From positions 186,001-250,000 of the forward strand of contig NZ_QJRC01000094.1 of assembly GCF_013393325.1 (NCBI RefSeq): DNA of 64,000 nt. The letters run 5' to 3'. Position numbers and translations under genes: made by a program. Origin of the DNA: Pseudomonas hunanensis. GTDB lineage: Bacteria; Pseudomonadota; Gammaproteobacteria; Pseudomonadales; Pseudomonadaceae. This document shows positions 9,776 through 18,689 of the stretch, piece after piece. The notes beneath the pieces were generated by a model. The model saw nothing but the letters and a program-made list of their open reading frames with translations. It ran no database searches and was not told the origin of the DNA. Position 1 is the first letter of the stretch. Each line of letters starts with the position of its first letter.

Positions 9776-12364
9776 TCAGGCGGTCGCTTCGAGGAAGTCC
9801 TGGGCAAAGCGCTGCAGCACACCGCCCGCTTCGTAGATCGACACTTCCTCGGCGGTGTCCAGGCGGCAGGTCACCGGCACGTCAAGGCGCTCGCCATTGC
9901 TGCGGGTAACCACCAACGTCAGGGTCGCCCGTGGCGTACGCGCGCCCAGCACGTCATAGGTCTCGCTGCCGTCCAGGCCCAGGGTCTTGCGGTCGGTGCC
10001 CGGTTTGAACTCCAGCGGTAACACGCCCATGCCCACCAGGTTGGTGCGGTGAATGCGCTCGAAGCCTTCGGCGACGATTGCCTCGACACCCGCCAGGCGC
10101 ACACCTTTGGCCGCCCAGTCACGGGACGAGCCCTGGCCGTAGTCCGCACCGGCAACGATGATCAGCGGCTGCTTGCGCTGCATGTAGGTTTCGATCGCCT
10201 CCCACATGCGGGTGACCTTGCCTTCCGGCTCGATACGCGCCAGCGAGCCCTGCTTCACGCTGCCATCTTCCTTGCGCACCATTTCGTTGAACAGCTTGGG
10301 GTTGGCAAAGGTGGCGCGCTGGGCGGTGAGGTGGTCGCCACGGTGGGTAGCGTAGGAGTTGAAGTCCTCTTCCGGCAGGCCCATTTTTGCCAGGTACTCA
10401 CCGGCGGCGCTGTCGAGCATGATGGCGTTCGATGGCGACAGGTGGTCGGTGGTGATGTTGTCCGGCAGCACCGCCAGCGGGCGCATGCCACGCAACGTGC
10501 GCTCGCCCGCCAGGGCGCCTTCCCAGTAGGGTGGGCGGCGGATGTAGGTACTCATCGGGCGCCAGTCGTACAGCGGCGCCACTTTCGGCCCACGGTCCTC
10601 CTCGATGGCGAACATCGGGATATACACCTTGCGGAACTGCTCCGGCTTGACCGCGGCACGCACCACGGCATCGATTTCTTCATCGCTGGGCCAGATATCC
10701 TTCAGGCGGATTTCCTTGCCATCGACCACACCCAGCACATCCTTCTCGATGTCGAAGCGGATGGTACCGGCGATGGCGTAGGCCACCACCAGCGGCGGTG
10801 AAGCCAGGAAAGCCTGTTTGGCATACGGATGGATACGCCCGTCGAAGTTGCGGTTACCCGACAGCACGGCGGTGGCGTACAGGTCGCGGTCGATGATCTC
10901 TTTCTGGATCACCGGGTCGAGGGCGCCGGACATACCGTTGCAAGTGGTGCAGGCGAAGGCGACGATGCCAAAGCCGAGTTGCTCCAGTTCCTTCTCCAGG
11001 CCGGCCTCTTCCAGATACAACTGCACGGCCTTGGAGCCTGGCGCCAGCGATGACTTGACCCACGGCTTGCGGGCCAGCCCCAGCCGGTTGGCATTGCGTG
11101 CAATCAAGCCTGCGGCAATCACGTTGCGCGGGTTACTGGTGTTGGTGCAACTGGTGATGGCGGCGATGATCACCGCGCCATCAGGCATTTGCCCCGGTAC
11201 CTCTTCCCAACTGCCGGCGATGCCTTTGGCCGCCAGGTCGCTGGTGGCCACGCGAGCATGCGGGTTGGACGGGCCGGCCATGTTGCGCACCACGCTCGAC
11301 AGGTCGAAGCTCAGGGTACGCTCATAAACGGCAGCGCCCAGGCTGTCGGCCCACAGGCCGGCGGCCTTGGCGTAGGTCTCCACCAGCTTGACCTGCTGCT
11401 CTTCACGGCCGGTCAGGCGCAGGTAGTCGATGGTCTGCTGGTCGATGGCGAACATCGCTGCAGTGGCGCCGTATTCCGGGGCCATGTTGGAAATGGTGGC
11501 GCGATCGCCCAGGGTCAGGGCGCGGGCACCCTCACCGTGAAACTCCAGATACGCGCCGACCACCTTCTGCTTGCGCAGGAACTCGGTCAGGGCCAGCACC
11601 AGGTCGGTGGCGGTGATGTTCGGCGCCAGCTTGCCGGTTAGCTCGACGCCGACGATTTCCGGCAGGCGCATCCAGGAGGCGCGCCCGAGCATCACGTTCT
11701 CGGCTTCCAGGCCGCCCACGCCGATGGCGATCACGCCCAGGGCATCGACGTGCGGGGTGTGGCTGTCGGTGCCGACGCAGGTGTCCGGGTAGGCCACGCC
11801 ACGGTCGTTGTGGATCACCGGCGACATCTTCTCCAGATTGATCTGGTGCATGATGCCGTTGCCCGGCTGGATCACGTCGACGTTCTTGAACGCCTTCTTG
11901 GTCCAGTTGATGAAGTGGAAGCGGTCTTCGTTGCGGCGGTCTTCGATGGCGCGGTTCTTCTCGAAAGCCTGCGGGTCGAAACCACCGCACTCCACGGCCA
12001 GCGAGTGGTCGACGATCAGTTGCACCGGCACCACCGGGTTGACGGCAGCCGGGTCACCACCTTTATCGGCGATGGCATCACGCAGGCCGGCGAGATCGAC
12101 CAGCGCGGTTTGGCCGAGAATGTCGTGGCACACCACGCGGGCCGGGAACCACGGGAAGTCGAGGTCGCGCTTGCGCTCGATCAGCTGGCTCAGCGAGGCG
12201 TCGAGCGTGGCTGGGTCGCAGCGACGCACCAGGTTTTCGGCGAGCACGCGGGAGGTGTATGGCAGGCCGTCGTAGGCGCCGGGCTTGATCGCCTCGACCG
12301 CCGCACGGGCATCGAAGTAGTCCAGGTCGGTGCCTGGCAGGTGCTTGCGGAATGCTGTGTTCAT
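9776..12364 (-). CDS. acnD: Fe/S-dependent 2-methylcitrate dehydratase AcnD
   Basis: An 862-residue aconitase A-like protein of the AcnD subfamily. It dehydrates 2-methylcitrate to 2-methylaconitate and needs PrpF. The [4Fe-4S] ligands are in ITSCTNTSNP (about residue 400) and CTTCNGMSG (about residue 470). The C-terminal swivel domain holds GADYGQGSSRDWAAKG. Start choice at 12364 (MNTAFRKHLPG) fits the family; the longer in-frame extension runs into repeat DNA and is rejected. It is separated from prpC by 169 bases containing a REP-like inverted repeat and from prpF by 64. AcnD rather than housekeeping AcnA is inferred from placement in the prp operon with prpF. Confidence 0.93.
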   Translation of the reverse strand: MNTAFRKHLPGTDLDYFDARAAVEAIKPGAYDGLPYTSRVLAENLVRRCDPATLDASLSQLIERKRDLDFPWFPARVVCHDILGQTALVDLAGLRDAIADKGGDPAAVNPVVPVQLIVDHSLAVECGGFDPQAFEKNRAIEDRRNEDRFHFINWTKKAFKNVDVIQPGNGIMHQINLEKMSPVIHNDRGVAYPDTCVGTDSHTPHVDALGVIAIGVGGLEAENVMLGRASWMRLPEIVGVELTGKLAPNITATDLVLALTEFLRKQKVVGAYLEFHGEGARALTLGDRATISNMAPEYGATAAMFAIDQQTIDYLRLTGREEQQVKLVETYAKAAGLWADSLGAAVYERTLSFDLSSVVRNMAGPSNPHARVATSDLAAKGIAGSWEEVPGQMPDGAVIIAAITSCTNTSNPRNVIAAGLIARNANRLGLARKPWVKSSLAPGSKAVQLYLEEAGLEKELEQLGFGIVAFACTTCNGMSGALDPVIQKEIIDRDLYATAVLSGNRNFDGRIHPYAKQAFLASPPLVVAYAIAGTIRFDIEKDVLGVVDGKEIRLKDIWPSDEEIDAVVRAAVKPEQFRKVYIPMFAIEEDRGPKVAPLYDWRPMSTYIRRPPYWEGALAGERTLRGMRPLAVLPDNITTDHLSPSNAIMLDSAAGEYLAKMGLPEEDFNSYATHRGDHLTAQRATFANPKLFNEMVRKEDGSVKQGSLARIEPEGKVTRMWEAIETYMQRKQPLIIVAGADYGQGSSRDWAAKGVRLAGVEAIVAEGFERIHRTNLVGMGVLPLEFKPGTDRKTLGLDGSETYDVLGARTPRATLTLVVTRSNGERLDVPVTCRLDTAEEVSIYEAGGVLQRFAQDFLEATA

Positions 12365-12431
12365 ATCGTTATCAGGCTCGGTCACGGTATTCGGGGGCAG
12401 GTGCGGCTCAGGCCTCGGGAGCGCTACGCGC

Positions 12432-12519
12432 CCCTTTCGCGACACAAAGCCGCCCCCACAGGTACTGCGCCGTCCCTGTGGGATCGGCCTTGTGTCGCGA
12501 AAGGGCTGCGCAGCAGCCC
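12432..12519. repeat. REP-type inverted repeat pair between prpC and acnD
   Basis: CCCTTTCGCGACACAA (12432-12447) is perfectly inverted at 12490-12505, with inner arms CCCACAGG (12455-12462) and CCTGTGGG (12475-12482). A third palindrome GGGCTGC-GCA-GCAGCCC follows at 12503-12519. The CGCGACACAAGGCCG and CCCACAGG words are hallmarks of the P. putida REP family as I know it. It lies inside the prp operon and probably affects mRNA stability between prpC and acnD. Confidence 0.8.
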
Positions 12520-12533
12520 CAGCAATCTCTGAC

Positions 12534-13661
12534 TCAGCGCTGCTCGATCGGCACGAACTGGCGCTGCTCGACGCCGACATACTCGGCGCTCGGGCGGATG
12601 ATGCGGTTGTTGGCGCGCTGCTCGAAGACGTGCGCCGCCCAGCCGGTCAGGCGCGAGCAGACGAAGATCGGGGTGAACAGCTTGGTCGGGATGCCCATGA
12701 AGTGGTAAGCCGAAGCATGGTAGAAGTCGGCATTCGGGAACAGGCGCTTCTGCTCCCACATGGTCTTGTCGATGGCTTCGGAAACCGGGTACAGCACCTT
12801 GTCGCCCACTTCGTCGGCCAACTGCTTCGACCAGCCCTTGATCACCTCGTTGCGCGGGTCGGACTCTTTGTAGATCGCATGGCCAAAACCCATGATCTTG
12901 TCCTTGCGCTCGAGCATGCGCAGCAGCTCGGCAGTGGCTTCCTGCGGGCTCTGGAAGCGCTCGATCAGCTCCATCGCGGCCTCGTTGGCGCCGCCATGCA
13001 GCGGGCCGCGCAGCGAGCCAATGGCAGCAGTAACGCAAGAGTACAGATCGGACAGGGTCGACGCGCAGACACGGGCAGTGAAGGTCGAGGCATTGAACTC
13101 GTGCTCGGCGTAGAGAATCAACGACACGTTCATGACCTTGACGTGCAGCTCGCTTGGCTTCTTGCCGTGCAGCAGGTGCAGGAAGTGGCCACCGAGGGTG
13201 TCTTCATCGCTGGTGCAGTCAATGCGTACGCCATGGTGGGTGAAGCGGTACCAGTAGCACATCACGGCCGGGAAAAGCGCCAGCAGGCGGTCGGTCTTGT
13301 CGCGCTGGGCCTCGAAGGTCAGTTCGGGTTCGAGGGTTCCCAGCACCGAACAGCCAGTGCGCATCACGTCCATCGGGTGGGCGTCGCGCGGGATGCGCTC
13401 CAGCACCTCCTTCAATGCTTGCGGCAGGTCACGCAGGCCCTTGAGCTTGCGTTTGTAGTCGGCAAGCTCGGCTTGGGTTGGCAGCTCGCCGTACAGCAGC
13501 AGGTAGGCGACTTCTTCAAATTCGGCACCGGCCGCCAGGTCACGTACATCGTAACCCCGATAGGTCAGCCCGGCACCGGCCTGGCCCACGGTCGACAGTG
13601 CAGTCTGGCCGGCCACCTGGCCACGCAGGCCTGCGCCACTGAGTACTTTTGCTTCGGCCAT
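12534..13661 (-). CDS. prpC: 2-methylcitrate synthase PrpC
   Basis: A 375-residue citrate synthase family enzyme that condenses propionyl-CoA with oxaloacetate to 2-methylcitrate. Family landmarks are GLTYRGYDVRDLA near residue 31, HGGANEAAM (active-site histidine region, about residue 222), GFGHAIYK (about 259) and the conserved arginines near the C-terminus. The length, shorter than GltA, and the position between prpB and acnD support PrpC over housekeeping citrate synthase. The upstream gap to prpB is 60 bases. Confidence 0.95.
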   Translation of the reverse strand: MAEAKVLSGAGLRGQVAGQTALSTVGQAGAGLTYRGYDVRDLAAGAEFEEVAYLLLYGELPTQAELADYKRKLKGLRDLPQALKEVLERIPRDAHPMDVMRTGCSVLGTLEPELTFEAQRDKTDRLLALFPAVMCYWYRFTHHGVRIDCTSDEDTLGGHFLHLLHGKKPSELHVKVMNVSLILYAEHEFNASTFTARVCASTLSDLYSCVTAAIGSLRGPLHGGANEAAMELIERFQSPQEATAELLRMLERKDKIMGFGHAIYKESDPRNEVIKGWSKQLADEVGDKVLYPVSEAIDKTMWEQKRLFPNADFYHASAYHFMGIPTKLFTPIFVCSRLTGWAAHVFEQRANNRIIRPSAEYVGVEQRQFVPIEQR

Positions 13662-13721
13662 GGTGTTTCTCCTTTCTTGAATTTGTTATGGATGCTTTCT
13701 GGCTAATTCGGGAGATGTCGC

Positions 13722-14612
13722 TCAGCCCTTCTTCTGGGCAAACAACGCATCAAGGCTCTGCTCGAAGGCGTGATAGCCGATGGCATCGTAGAGCTCCATG
13801 CGGGTTTGCATGGTGTCGATCACGTTTTTCTGCGTGCCGTCACGACGCAGCGCGGTGTACACGTTCTCGGCCGCCTTGTTCATGGCGCGGAACGCCGACA
13901 GTGGGTACAGCACCAGCGACACGTCGACCGAAGCCAGTTCTTCGGTGGTGTACAGCGGCGTGGCGCCGAACTCGGTGATATTGGCCAGAATCGGTGCCTT
14001 CACCCGATCGGCGAAAGTCTTGTACATCTGCAGTTCGGTGATGGCTTCCGGGAAGATCATGTCGGCGCCGGCCTCGATGCAGGCCTCGGCACGGTCCAGG
14101 GCAGCGTTCAGGCCTTCGACGGCCAACGCGTCGGTACGCGCCATGATCACGAAGCTGTCATCGCTGCGGGCATCCACGGCAGCCTTGATGCGGTCGACCA
14201 TTTCCTGTTGGGTGACAATTTCCTTGTTCGGGCGATGGCCGCAACGCTTGGCGCCAACCTGGTCCTCGATATGGATCGCGGCAGCGCCGAACTTGCTCAT
14301 CGAGCGCACGGTACGGGCAACGTTGAAGGCCGAGGCACCGAAGCCAGTGTCGACATCCACCAACAGCGGCACGTCGCAGACATCGGTGATACGGCGCACG
14401 TCGGTGAGCACGTCGTCCAGGCCACTGATGCCCAGGTCCGGCAGGCCCAGGGAGCCTGCGGCCACGCCTCCACCGGACAGGTAGATGGCCTTGAAGCCGG
14501 CACGCTTGGCCAACAGGGCATGGTTGGCATTGATGGCGCCAACCACCTGCAGCGGATGTTCAGCGGCAACGGCATCGCGGAAACGCTGACCGGGGGTGCT
14601 CTTCACAGTCAT
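13722..14612 (-). CDS. prpB: 2-methylisocitrate lyase PrpB
   Basis: A 296-residue member of the isocitrate lyase/PEP mutase family that splits 2-methylisocitrate into pyruvate and succinate, closing the methylcitrate cycle. Visible motifs are DVDTGFG (metal-binding Asp region), [12 protein letters not shown] containing the catalytic KRCGH signature, and [11 protein letters not shown]. The start overlaps the stop of the upstream GntR regulator gene by four bases (ATGA), so regulator and enzyme are translationally coupled. Confidence 0.96.
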
Positions 14613-15325
14613 TTCTCACCTCGTGGGCTGTTGTTGTGGGCGTCCAGATAGTGGCGCTCGATATTGCGTTTGGATGCACCGATATGGCGGCGCATCAGGA
14701 GCTCGGCCAGTTCGCCGTCACGGTCGGCGATGGCATCGAGAATGCGGTGGTGCTCGGCAAAGGCCTGACGCGGCCGGTTGGGCGTGGCGGAGAACTGGAT
14801 GCGGTACATGCGCACCAGCTGGTACAGCTCGCCGCAGAGCATCTTGACCAGGGTCTGGTTACCGCTACCCTGAATAATCCGGTAGTGGAAGTCGTAGTCG
14901 CCTTCCTGCTGGTAGTAACCCAGGCCGGCCTGGAACGCAGCGTCGCGCTCGTGGGTGTCGAGCACCCGGCGCAACTCGTCGATGTCGGCCTGGCTCATGC
15001 GTTCGGCCGCCAGCCGGCAGGCCATGCCTTCCAGGGACTCGCGAATTTCGTACAGTTCGATCAGCTCGGCGTGGTTGAGCGACACTACCCTCGCCCCTAC
15101 ATGCGGCACGCGCACCAGCAGGCGCTGGCCTTCAAGGCGGTGGATAGCCTCGCGCAGCGGCCCACGGCTGATGCCATAGGTGCGCGCCAGTTCCGGCTCG
15201 GAAATCTTGCTGCCGGGGGCGATTTCACCCTTGACGATGGCCGCCTGGATGCGCCGGAAGACGTTTTCGGAAAGTGTTTCCGTTTCGTCTGCCAGCACTG
15301 GGCCAGGGGTGGAAAGGTCCTGCAT
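14609..15325 (-). CDS. GntR/FadR-family regulator of the prp (methylcitrate) operon
   Basis: A 238-residue protein with an N-terminal winged helix-turn-helix ([20 protein letters not shown], about residues 40-60) and a C-terminal FCD ligand-binding domain (DFHYRI and EHHRILDAI carry likely metal-binding His and Asp). It is the first gene of the prp operon and overlaps prpB by four bases. The likely effector is a methylcitrate cycle intermediate, but this is inference. The start at 15325 follows AAGGTG; the sequence between ribosome binding site and start codon contains one of two ATTGTCGACA sites, so the protein probably represses its own operon. Confidence 0.9.
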
Positions 15326-15335
15326 ATTGTCGACA
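15326..15335. promoter_or_regulatory. Predicted GntR operator, start-codon site
   Basis: ATTGTCGACA directly abuts the start codon of the GntR gene, between ribosome binding site and ATG. TTGTCGACA fits the FadR-subfamily pattern TNGTNNACNA, though the outer right arm is imperfect. It repeats ten bases of the perfect site at 15399-15410. Confidence 0.6.
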
Positions 15336-15356
15336 CCTTGAAAAACTCTTCGCCAG

Positions 15357-15385
15357 AAATTAACCAACAGAGCCCATCAAGTCAA
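15357..15385 (-). promoter_or_regulatory. Predicted promoter of the prp operon
   Basis: On the minus strand TTGACT (15380-15385) and TAATTT (15357-15362) are 17 bases apart, putting the transcript start near 15350. The two ATTGTCGACA sites lie on either side of it, which supports the placement. Confidence 0.5.
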
Positions 15386-15631: not shown

Positions 15632-16168
15632 ATGAGACTTACACCCGTTTTATTGCTGCTATGCCTCACCCTGCTGCCGGCCCTTGGCCAGGCTGCGGGC
15701 AAGACCGTGTATGGTCTCAACGAATACGCACAGCTGGGCGACCTGAACCTGGAAGTGGCCGCCAAGCTCGACACCGGTGCCAAGACCGCGTCGCTCAGCG
15801 CCCGCGACATCAAGCGGTTCAAGCGCAACGGCGAAAGCTGGGTACGCTTCTACCTCGCCATCGATGCGGCCCATTCGCACCCGATCGAGCGCCCACTGGC
15901 ACGCGTAAGCAAGATCAAGCGCCGGGCTGGCGACTATGATGCCGAATCGGGCAAGGCCTACACGGCCCGCCCGGTCATCGAACTCGAAATCTGCATGGGC
16001 CAGGCCATGCGCACCATCGAAGTGAACCTCACCGACCGCAGCGCCTTCCAGTTCCCGCTGCTGATCGGCTCCGAGGCGCTCAAGCACTTCGACGCGCTGG
16101 TTGACCCAAGCCTTAAATATGCGGCCGGCAAACCTGCCTGTGCCACCGACGCTCCCAAAGCAGAGTAA
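15632..16168 (+). CDS. Retropepsin-like (DUF785, 'ATP-dependent zinc protease' family) periplasmic protein
   Basis: A 178-residue protein with a cleavable signal peptide (residues 1-21, ending GQA) and one retropepsin-type domain. AKLDTGAKTASLSA at about residues 44-57 carries the Asp-Thr-Gly signature of aspartic proteases, and IGSEALKHF is the family's later conserved segment. Database names call the family a zinc protease, but the visible motif is the aspartic DTG. It is the first gene of a three-gene operon with a transglutaminase-7TM protein (5 bases away) and an ATP-grasp ligase. The relative RimB acts with the ATP-grasp ligase RimK; a peptide-trimming partner role is inferred here. Confidence 0.85.
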   Translation: MRLTPVLLLLCLTLLPALGQAAGKTVYGLNEYAQLGDLNLEVAAKLDTGAKTASLSARDIKRFKRNGESWVRFYLAIDAAHSHPIERPLARVSKIKRRAGDYDAESGKAYTARPVIELEICMGQAMRTIEVNLTDRSAFQFPLLIGSEALKHFDALVDPSLKYAAGKPACATDAPKAE

Positions 16169-16173
16169 TCCCG

Positions 16174-17709
16174 ATGCGCTCTCTTACCCTCCATCTGAAA
16201 GTCCTGATCACCGTACTGGTGCTATTGGGCGTGGCGGTCACGGCTTATCAGATCTTCTTCCTCGGCATCCCGGTGACCGAGGATGAAACCGACGACCTGT
16301 GGAACATCGACGCCAAGGTCGAGTTCGTGGCCAGCACCAAGGACCCGGTCAAGGTGCAGATGTTCGTGCCGCCGCTGAACCGCGACTACGTCAGCCTGAA
16401 CGAGAGCTTCATCTCCAACAACTACGGGGTCAGCGTCAACCGCGCCGACGGCAACCGCAAGGTCACCTGGTCGGCCCGCCGCGCCAGTGGCAACCAGACC
16501 CTCTACTACCGCCTGGTGCTGACCAAGCGCTACAGCAACGAGAAGACCACGGTCAAAGGCCCGACCTTCCGTGACAGCCTGGCCGTCGAAGGCCCCGAGA
16601 AGATCGCCGCTGAAGCCCTGATGGCACCGATCCGCCAGCACTCGGCCGACGTCGAAACCTTCGTCAGCGAGACCATCAAGCGGGTCAACAACCTCAACGA
16701 TGACAACGTCAAGCTGCTGCTGGCCGGCGACACTTCGGCCATGAAGAAGGCCCAGATCATCGACCTGCTGCTGTCGATCGCCCACGTGCCGATGGAAAAG
16801 GTGCACACCATCCGCCTGGTCGCCGACACCCCGCAGACCCCGGAACTGTGGCTGCGCAGCTTCAACGGCAACGACTGGCTGTACTTCAACCCGGACACCG
16901 GCGAGCAAGGCCTGCCGAGCGACCGCCTGCTGTGGTGGACGGGTGACGACAACCTGATCACCGTCGATGGCGGCAAGAAGGCCAACGTCACCTTCAGCAT
17001 GAACAACAGCGAGATGAACGCCATTCGCCTGGCCAAGCTGACCGACGAGAACACCGACGCCGACTTCCTCGAGTACTCGTTGTACGGCCTGCCGCTGCAA
17101 ACCCAGCAAACCTTCATGATCATGGTCATGATCCCGATCGGCGTGCTGGTGATCCTGGTGTTGCGCAACCTCATCGGCCTGCAGACCCTGGGTACCTTCA
17201 CACCGGTACTGATTGCCCTGGCCTTCCGCGAGACCCAGCTAGGCTTTGGCATCGTGCTGTTCACGGTGATCACCGCCCTGGGCCTGTCACTGCGCTCGTA
17301 CCTGGAACACCTCAAGCTGCAGATGCTGCCACGCCTGTCGGTGGTGCTGACCTTCGTCGTGGTACTGATCGCCGCCATCAGCCTGTTCAGCCATAAACTG
17401 GGCCTGGAGCGCGGGCTGTCGGTGGCGCTGTTCCCGATGGTGATCCTGACCATGACCATCGAACGCCTGTCGATCACCTGGGAAGAGCGTGGCGGCGGCC
17501 ATGCCATGAAAGTGGCCATCGGCACCCTGTTCGCCGCCTCGGTGGCACACCTGCTGATGATGGTGCCGGAACTGGTGTACTTCGTATTCACCTTCCCGGC
17601 CGTACTGCTGATCCTGGTGGGCTTCATGCTGGCGATGGGCCGTTATCGCGGCTACCGCCTGACCGAGCTCGTGCGTTTCAAGGCTTTTCTGAAGAAGGCT
17701 GACGCCTGA
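16174..17709 (+). CDS. Inactive transglutaminase domain fused to seven membrane helices
   Basis: A 511-residue membrane protein. It starts with one membrane segment (about residues 8-28), followed by a large non-cytoplasmic part with a transglutaminase-like domain (about residues 150-260) in which I do not see a complete Cys-His-Asp triad. Then come about seven hydrophobic helices between residues 310 and 505 (for example TFMIMVMIPIGVLVILVL and HLLMMVPELVYFVFTFPAVL). This architecture is known from the same three-gene cluster in other proteobacteria. Its stop overlaps the next start by one base. The substrate and transported or sensed molecule are unknown. Confidence 0.88.
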   Translation: MRSLTLHLKVLITVLVLLGVAVTAYQIFFLGIPVTEDETDDLWNIDAKVEFVASTKDPVKVQMFVPPLNRDYVSLNESFISNNYGVSVNRADGNRKVTWSARRASGNQTLYYRLVLTKRYSNEKTTVKGPTFRDSLAVEGPEKIAAEALMAPIRQHSADVETFVSETIKRVNNLNDDNVKLLLAGDTSAMKKAQIIDLLLSIAHVPMEKVHTIRLVADTPQTPELWLRSFNGNDWLYFNPDTGEQGLPSDRLLWWTGDDNLITVDGGKKANVTFSMNNSEMNAIRLAKLTDENTDADFLEYSLYGLPLQTQQTFMIMVMIPIGVLVILVLRNLIGLQTLGTFTPVLIALAFRETQLGFGIVLFTVITALGLSLRSYLEHLKLQMLPRLSVVLTFVVVLIAAISLFSHKLGLERGLSVALFPMVILTMTIERLSITWEERGGGHAMKVAIGTLFAASVAHLLMMVPELVYFVFTFPAVLLILVGFMLAMGRYRGYRLTELVRFKAFLKKADA

Positions 17710-18689
17710 TGTTTGGCCTGATCAAGACGTGGAAAGCCCTGGAGGCCCGGGGCATCATGGGTATCAACCGGCGCAACGCGGACTACGTGTTGAAGTACAA
17801 CAAGCGCCACCTGTACCCGATCGTCGACGACAAGATCATCACCAAGGAGCGTGCCCTGGCGGCCGGCATCCATGTGCCGGAAATGTACGGCATCATCGAG
17901 ACCGAAAAAGAGATCGAGAAGCTCGATCAGATCATTGGCGGGCGCAACGATTTCGTCATCAAGCCGGCACAGGGCGCCGGCGGTGACGGCATCCTGGTGA
18001 TCGCCGACCGCTTCGAAGACCGCTACCGCACGGTGTCGGGCAAGATCATCAGCCATGAGGAAATCGAGCACCAGATTTCCAGCATCCTCACTGGCCTGTA
18101 CTCGCTCGGCGGGCACCGCGACCGCGCGCTGATCGAGTACCGGGTGACCCCGGACCAAATCTTCAAGAGCATCAGCTACGAAGGCGTGCCGGATATCCGC
18201 ATCATCGTGCTGATGGGCTACCCGGTAATGGCCATGCTGCGCCTGCCAACCCGCCAGTCCGGTGGCAAGGCCAACCTGCACCAGGGCGCCATTGGTGTGG
18301 GTGTGGACCTGGCCACCGGCGTGACCCTGCGTGGCACCTGGCTGAACAACATCATCAGCAAACACCCGGACACCACCAATGCGGTGGACGGCGTGCAGCT
18401 GCCGAACTGGGACGGTTTCATGAAGCTGGCCGCCGGCTGTTACGAGCTGTGCGGCTTGGGCTACATTGGCGTGGACATGGTGCTGGACCAGGAAAAGGGG
18501 CCGTTGATTCTGGAGCTCAATGCCCGCCCGGGACTGAACATCCAGATTGCCAACGACTGCGGTTTGACCCAGCGTACCCATGCCATCGAGGCGCATATCG
18601 AAGCGCTGGCCAAGGACGGCGTGACCGAGGATGCCGAGCAGCGGGTACGGGTCGCGCAAGGGCTGTTTGGGCACGTACCCAACCGCTGA
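17709..18689 (+). CDS. Alpha-L-glutamate ligase-like protein (ATP-grasp)
   Basis: A 326-residue ATP-grasp enzyme of the RimK-like amidoligase group. The ATP-binding lysine and glycine loop are in FVIKPAQGAGGDGILVI (about residues 85-101), and the Mg2+ ligands in LELNARPGLNIQIAN near residue 275. It has no signal peptide and is cytoplasmic. Such enzymes add amino acids, often glutamate, to a carboxyl group using ATP; the acceptor here is unknown. It is the third gene of the operon, translationally coupled to the transglutaminase-7TM gene (TGATG). A GGGGCTGC palindrome 9 bases after the stop probably ends the transcript. Confidence 0.88.
   Translation: MFGLIKTWKALEARGIMGINRRNADYVLKYNKRHLYPIVDDKIITKERALAAGIHVPEMYGIIETEKEIEKLDQIIGGRNDFVIKPAQGAGGDGILVIADRFEDRYRTVSGKIISHEEIEHQISSILTGLYSLGGHRDRALIEYRVTPDQIFKSISYEGVPDIRIIVLMGYPVMAMLRLPTRQSGGKANLHQGAIGVGVDLATGVTLRGTWLNNIISKHPDTTNAVDGVQLPNWDGFMKLAAGCYELCGLGYIGVDMVLDQEKGPLILELNARPGLNIQIANDCGLTQRTHAIEAHIEALAKDGVTEDAEQRVRVAQGLFGHVPNR

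Follow-up and report, generated by a model that had tools for sequence, protein, structure and literature searches.

The closest described system is the rlo operon, which was named and studied in Pseudomonas aeruginosa in June 2025 (PMC12239564). According to that report, a strain from which all three secreted retropepsins are absent fails in low salt; it also shows heightened sensitivity to beta-lactams, forms poor biofilm and changes its cell shape, and the catalytic Asp of the retropepsin is required. Loss of rloB or rloC in the triple retropepsin mutant fully rescues growth in low salt and partly rescues the other defects. Single rloB and rloC mutants show milder defects of their own, and the rlo product is hence not only harmful. 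The same paper gives the structure of the RloA dimer (P. aeruginosa and P. fluorescens proteins), names the positively charged residues K46, R92, R114 and R137 as those that engage the substrate, and reports that RloA cuts glutamate runs of eight or more; its substrates so far are solely artificial or RimK-type. RloB is termed there an inactive transglutaminase. The same genes are also found in a suppressor table (PMC7314104) and in parallel evolution under antibiotics (PMC10127599). The osmotic and envelope stress tests proposed in a preliminary description of the present locus are already in print for P. aeruginosa (PMC12239564). The portions of PMC12239564 on which we draw name no rlo product, and the statement of the preliminary description that neither product nor acceptor is established holds in the literature searched.

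The rlo operon in Pseudomonas hunanensis

The window analysed here is a stretch of 64,000 nt of the P. hunanensis genome, in which the ORF listing places three plus-strand genes at 15632-18689, the first two separated by a gap of 5 nt and the last two overlapping by one base. They comprise rloA (15632..16168), for a putatively secreted retropepsin-like aspartic peptidase of 178 aa; rloB (16174..17709), for an inner-membrane protein of 511 aa with an N-terminal helix, a beta-sandwich, a dead transglutaminase-fold domain and a 7TM part; and rloC (17709..18689), for an ATP-grasp ligase of 326 aa that, aligned with the RimK of its own genome, is seen to be without RimK's N-terminal domain. RloA passes the curated model NF052262 with 342.9 bits (cut-off 280), RloB passes NF052267 with 1073.5 (cut-off 900) and RloC passes TIGR02291 with 563.9 (cut-off 314.2); the Pfam matches above cut-off are PF05618 for RloA, PF14400 and PF14402 for RloB, and PF14397 for RloC. 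These family matches are far beyond chance, and the three genes are the previously published rlo operon (rloA, rloB, rloC). The finding is as such already known, the operon being published and curated NCBIfam models in existence. The tight linkage of three genes in the preliminary description is confirmed, with exact coordinates. Set beside the rloABC genes of P. aeruginosa and P. fluorescens, as far as PMC12239564 describes them, the window agrees in all three genes and in their arrangement, passes the curated models and shares the DTG motif and the substrate residues, and we found no difference of kind; the host has RloA and RloA2, and no third secreted copy resembling RloA3. A genome-wide search found three PF05618 genes in the host, RloA, RloA2 and RimB, and no others. 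At the operon itself no promoter-like site was detected, and terminator-like sites numbered 2 against 2.5 in shuffles. Upstream, on the minus strand, lie genes (9776-15367) which we take to resemble a methylcitrate cycle cluster, and the Pfam scan places a GntR-type regulator at 14609-15367 on that strand.

The RloA of the window carries its DTG catalytic motif at residues 47-49 (15770..15778, plus strand), D47 corresponding to D48 of the P. aeruginosa protein in our reading of the offset; with the same one-residue shift, its K45, R91, R113 and R136 are the published K46, R92, R114 and R137. The closest solved structure is 9g58 (E 1.6e-88), which we infer to be the crystal structure of P. fluorescens RloA described in PMC12239564. 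The N-terminus is a hydrophobic stretch that, judged by eye from the sequence, resembles a signal peptide, and the exported DTG aspartic-type peptidase of the preliminary description is borne out to this extent. Of 97 ORFs that carry a DTGA-like motif, 22 RloA-like ones have, by a crude pattern, a lipobox-like motif ahead of the protease domain (L071, L074, L084, L088, L093-L095, L137, L141 and others), and some RloA proteins may be lipoproteins.

In RloC, residues D256, E269 and N271 (18474..18521, plus strand) align with the D, E and N of the host's own RimK, and at least 95% of RloC sequences share them, both among 75 canonical ones and among 26 from the intact branch described below. With K85 also retained, RloC keeps the residue set of a functional ATP-grasp ligase, in agreement with the cytoplasmic amidoligase first proposed. 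RloC also has a conserved stretch of its own, with H219, P220, D221 and W234, that is missing from RimK in the alignment; together with the loss of the RimK N-terminal domain, this suggests that its acceptor site probably differs. The RimB-RimK pair likewise joins a retropepsin to an ATP-grasp ligase, and the host genome encodes a separate RimB with an adjoining RimK-like gene. The operon of the window is not such a system: RloA reaches 82.6 bits against the RimB model NF052261 (cut-off 200) and RloC 49.4 bits against the RimK-family model TIGR00768 (cut-off 143.4), RloA looks exported (by eye) and a membrane protein has been added.

An alignment of 117 RloB sequences places A189 (16738..16740), E224 (16843..16845) and N239 (16888..16890, all plus strand) of the window's RloB at the positions of the catalytic Cys, His and Asp of intact relatives. 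The columns were anchored on one such relative, L039, whose Cys, His and Asp pair with identical letters in 3isr, a transglutaminase-like putative cysteine protease of Cytophaga hutchinsonii, in a sequence match that is weak alone (E 0.018). No Cys lies within eight residues of the catalytic column in any of the 83 non-intact rows, the window included, or of 14 further rows. The predicted structure of the window's RloB (m9741d1bc814f; mean pLDDT 67.8, a middling confidence) matches 3isr_C with Z 14.4 and rmsd 4.6 over 224 residues, and the periplasmic part of RloB thus has the same fold as 3isr; it differs in having lost Cys, His and Asp and in carrying the 7TM part. In this model the transglutaminase fold is kept despite the loss of the triad, and we reject an active transglutaminase or transglutaminase-like peptidase for the window's RloB. 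The suspicion of an inactive domain in the preliminary description was accordingly well founded, and the intact triad that it named as a refutation is not there. The seven membrane helices it described correspond to a PF14402 match at residues 260-505 (16951..17688, plus strand; E 8.7e-98), in a protein that passes NF052267. Structural comparison offered NqrD and RnfE (Z 7.4 and 6.4) and ALMT channels (Z 5.8) for the 7TM part, matches too weak to name its fold. A search of viral contigs for canonical RloB relatives found none.

The three families do not occur mostly apart, as a survey suggested by the preliminary description makes clear. Among 274 genomes of the class, 57 have a match to PF14402 (RloB), 52 to TIGR02291 (RloC; E up to 1e-40) and 129 to PF05618, the 57 still including one match below cut-off (G077, E 5.1e-4) that is a sodium symporter ORF. 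All 52 RloC genomes fall within the RloB set. At 51 of 58 places no more than 2 kb separate RloC from RloB, and in the two genomes where an RloC stands apart the genes are on different contigs. PF05618 genes lie within 2 kb of RloB at no fewer than 42 of the 58 places among the matches listed, with six further places coming from fetched loci (G041, G103, G155, G179, G182 and G220). In one locus (L040:4976-7492) a single ORF of 838 residues unites the transglutaminase core, the 7TM part and the ATP-grasp domain, an RloB-RloC fusion that fits a cytoplasmic C-terminus for RloB.

Relatives with an intact triad

Cys, His and Asp are all kept in 32 of the 117 aligned RloB sequences (intact-triad loci L037-L041, L099-L123 and L125-L129), a number that says nothing on frequency because 22 of these loci came solely from a search with an intact-triad query; within the class sample, 5 of 274 genomes have an intact copy. 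The branch spans Pseudomonadota, Nitrospirota, Deltaproteobacteria (Myxococcota) and Campylobacterota, with many metagenome-assembled members. The same two families as in the window, RloB and RloC, stand side by side at 30 of the 32 loci, and the two loci without an adjoining RloC sit at contig ends. These loci differ from the window in their intact triad, in the lack of a retropepsin in the fetched stretch and in the TPR and barrel-like genes downstream. The predicted model of one member, L099 (mean pLDDT 81.4), matches 3isr_A with Z 23.6 and rmsd 3.4 over 255 residues, followed at Z about 8 to 11 by human transglutaminases, LapG, pseudomurein endoisopeptidases and TgpA.

No retropepsin was found in the fetched stretch of any of the 32 intact-triad loci, of which 29 provide a fair test with at least 700 nt upstream, L104, L115 and L119 having less. 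By comparison, a retropepsin lies within 2.5 kb at 91 of 96 dead-triad loci (77 of 82, and 14 of 14 RloB genes added later, all dead and each with a retropepsin next door), many of these loci being close relatives of one another; the locus table leaves out L002, which is the same gene as L001, and L130 and L131, which have no transglutaminase domain. The five dead-triad loci without an adjacent retropepsin (L023, L042, L044, L067 and L139) each have a PF05618 gene elsewhere in the genome. At the level of genomes, a PF05618 gene is present in every genome checked whose RloB is dead, 79 of 79, with 52 of 52 from the class sample and 27 of 27 from a phylum subset. That subset comprised 34 of 65 PF14402 genomes, all 17 from outside the class together with a selection from within it. 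Where RloB is intact, 4 of 10 genomes have such a gene. These ten are few and several are incomplete (G397 and G433 at 88%; G535 is 9% contaminated), and one of the four with a PF05618 gene, G033 (86% complete, 6% contaminated), counts on both sides, having both an intact RloB and, in L149, a dead-triad operon that includes a retropepsin. From these counts the retropepsin seems indispensable where RloB is dead and optional where it is intact.

The contrast between 32 and 96 loci is not one of many independent events. On a quick tree of the 7TM part alone (76 of the 117 rows after dropping near-copies, with long branches meeting), the intact rows cluster, and triad state requires 2 changes and retropepsin presence 6. 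The intact and dead forms are essentially one deep split, and about a single evolutionary event underlies the mutual exclusivity. Four loci (L042-L045) with a recognisable transglutaminase core have lost the Cys and have no RloC in the fetched stretch; a retropepsin adjoins on the opposite strand in L043 and L045, lies about 4.8 kb off in one and is missing from the stretch in the other, and they lend weak support to the link between retropepsin and dead triad.

Downstream of rloC, 27 of the 32 intact-triad loci have a TPR gene, mostly of 520-670 aa (longer in L040), and the five without one stop at or near a contig end. Where the start of the TPR protein is given, a single membrane helix usually lies close to the N-terminus. 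In 21 of the 32 the next gene encodes a protein of some 400 aa whose start is signal-like and whose end resembles a barrel; L040 and L117 lack it even though the flank was retrieved. In the Pfam scan of 16 members, no outer-membrane barrel family matches more than three, and most of these matches are weak; the strongest is to MtrB/PioB (3.7e-9, one member). These downstream genes are a hint that the product of the intact branch may go to or through the outer membrane. Two short RloB relatives without the transglutaminase domain also adjoin RloC (L130:4963-7955, 373 aa; L131:6080-7234, 385 aa); the gene preceding the former is a possible barrel (E 0.018 only), and a PF05618 protein about 1.9 kb from the latter looks RimB-like, under cut-off.

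A term search of PMC12239564 gave no mention of the intact-triad form, nor did the literature searched, whose coverage stops short of the likeliest place, the 2009 amidoligase survey by Iyer and colleagues. The Pfam wording "usually fused to an inactive transglutaminase" suggests that its authors were aware of exceptions. The comparison of intact and dead forms appears to be new here, and it is a testable lead, not proof.

A proposed route for making, carrying and cutting the rlo product

We suggest, with a probability of about 60%, that RloC makes a product which RloB carries and RloA cuts. RloC, as a relative of RimK, would act in the cytoplasm, linking amino acids, most likely glutamate, by amide bonds into a chain that is either free or attached to an acceptor. 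RloB, coupled to RloC, would take this product to or across the inner membrane, where its dead transglutaminase-fold domain would hold it on the periplasmic side for cleavage by the secreted RloA retropepsin dimer; product left uncut would harm the envelope in low salt. We infer glutamate as the natural monomer, RloB as the carrier and the uncut product as the harmful agent. The proposal is favoured by the gene families and their order, by the adjacency and fusion of RloC and RloB, by the residues of RloC and the substrate residues of RloA, and by the PF05618 gene in every checked genome with a dead RloB. It also fits the published rescue of triple retropepsin loss by loss of rloB or rloC (PMC12239564), as does the idea of making inside and trimming outside in the preliminary description. 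What speaks against it is the narrow range of substrates that RloA has so far been seen to cut and the defects, if milder, of single rloB and rloC mutants (PMC12239564); against the carrier role in particular stands the 7TM part, for which structure comparison gave no convincing fold match.

It is also possible, if rather unlikely, that RloC tags an exported or membrane protein much as RimK tags RpsF, with RloA removing the tag outside and RloB serving as a docking or sensing partner. RimK and RimB act in this manner on RpsF in the cytoplasm, and RloA removes the glutamate tail on RpsF in vitro (both PMC12239564), but the probably different acceptor site of RloC argues against the parallel, and our analysis identified no acceptor protein. 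More doubtful still is a purely indirect connection, in which RloA would not cut the RloC product and the genetic link would arise through shared effects on the cell wall. The defects of single rloB and rloC mutants (PMC12239564) could be read in this way, as could the PF05618 genes in 75 of the 217 class genomes without an RloB match, although some of these will be RimB; the tight operon, the completeness of the low-salt rescue (PMC12239564) and the PF05618 gene in 79 of 79 dead-RloB genomes tell against it.

Returning to the proposal that RloC makes, RloB carries and RloA cuts, the intact-triad branch without a retropepsin, set against the 91 of 96 dead loci with one, suggests that the retropepsin and the transglutaminase domain share one task, the cleavage of the RloC product beyond the cytoplasm, and that one has taken the place of the other. 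We would tentatively, at somewhat less than even odds, extend this to a catalytic hand-off, whereby the ancestral RloB cut the product itself, the retropepsin took over on the line leading towards the window and the domain decayed to holding substrate. In such an ancestor, an active RloB peptidase with periplasmic TPR and outer-membrane-barrel partners would have passed the product across the envelope.

What remains of interest in this operon is the rlo product and the intact-triad relatives. The latter name a second enzyme that possibly acts on the same bond, their partner genes hint at a product that crosses the envelope, and they allow a direct test of what the retropepsin does. If the hand-off is true, an intact-triad RloB should make the retropepsins dispensable, and the rlo product should contain a bond open to cleavage by aspartic and cysteine peptidases alike.
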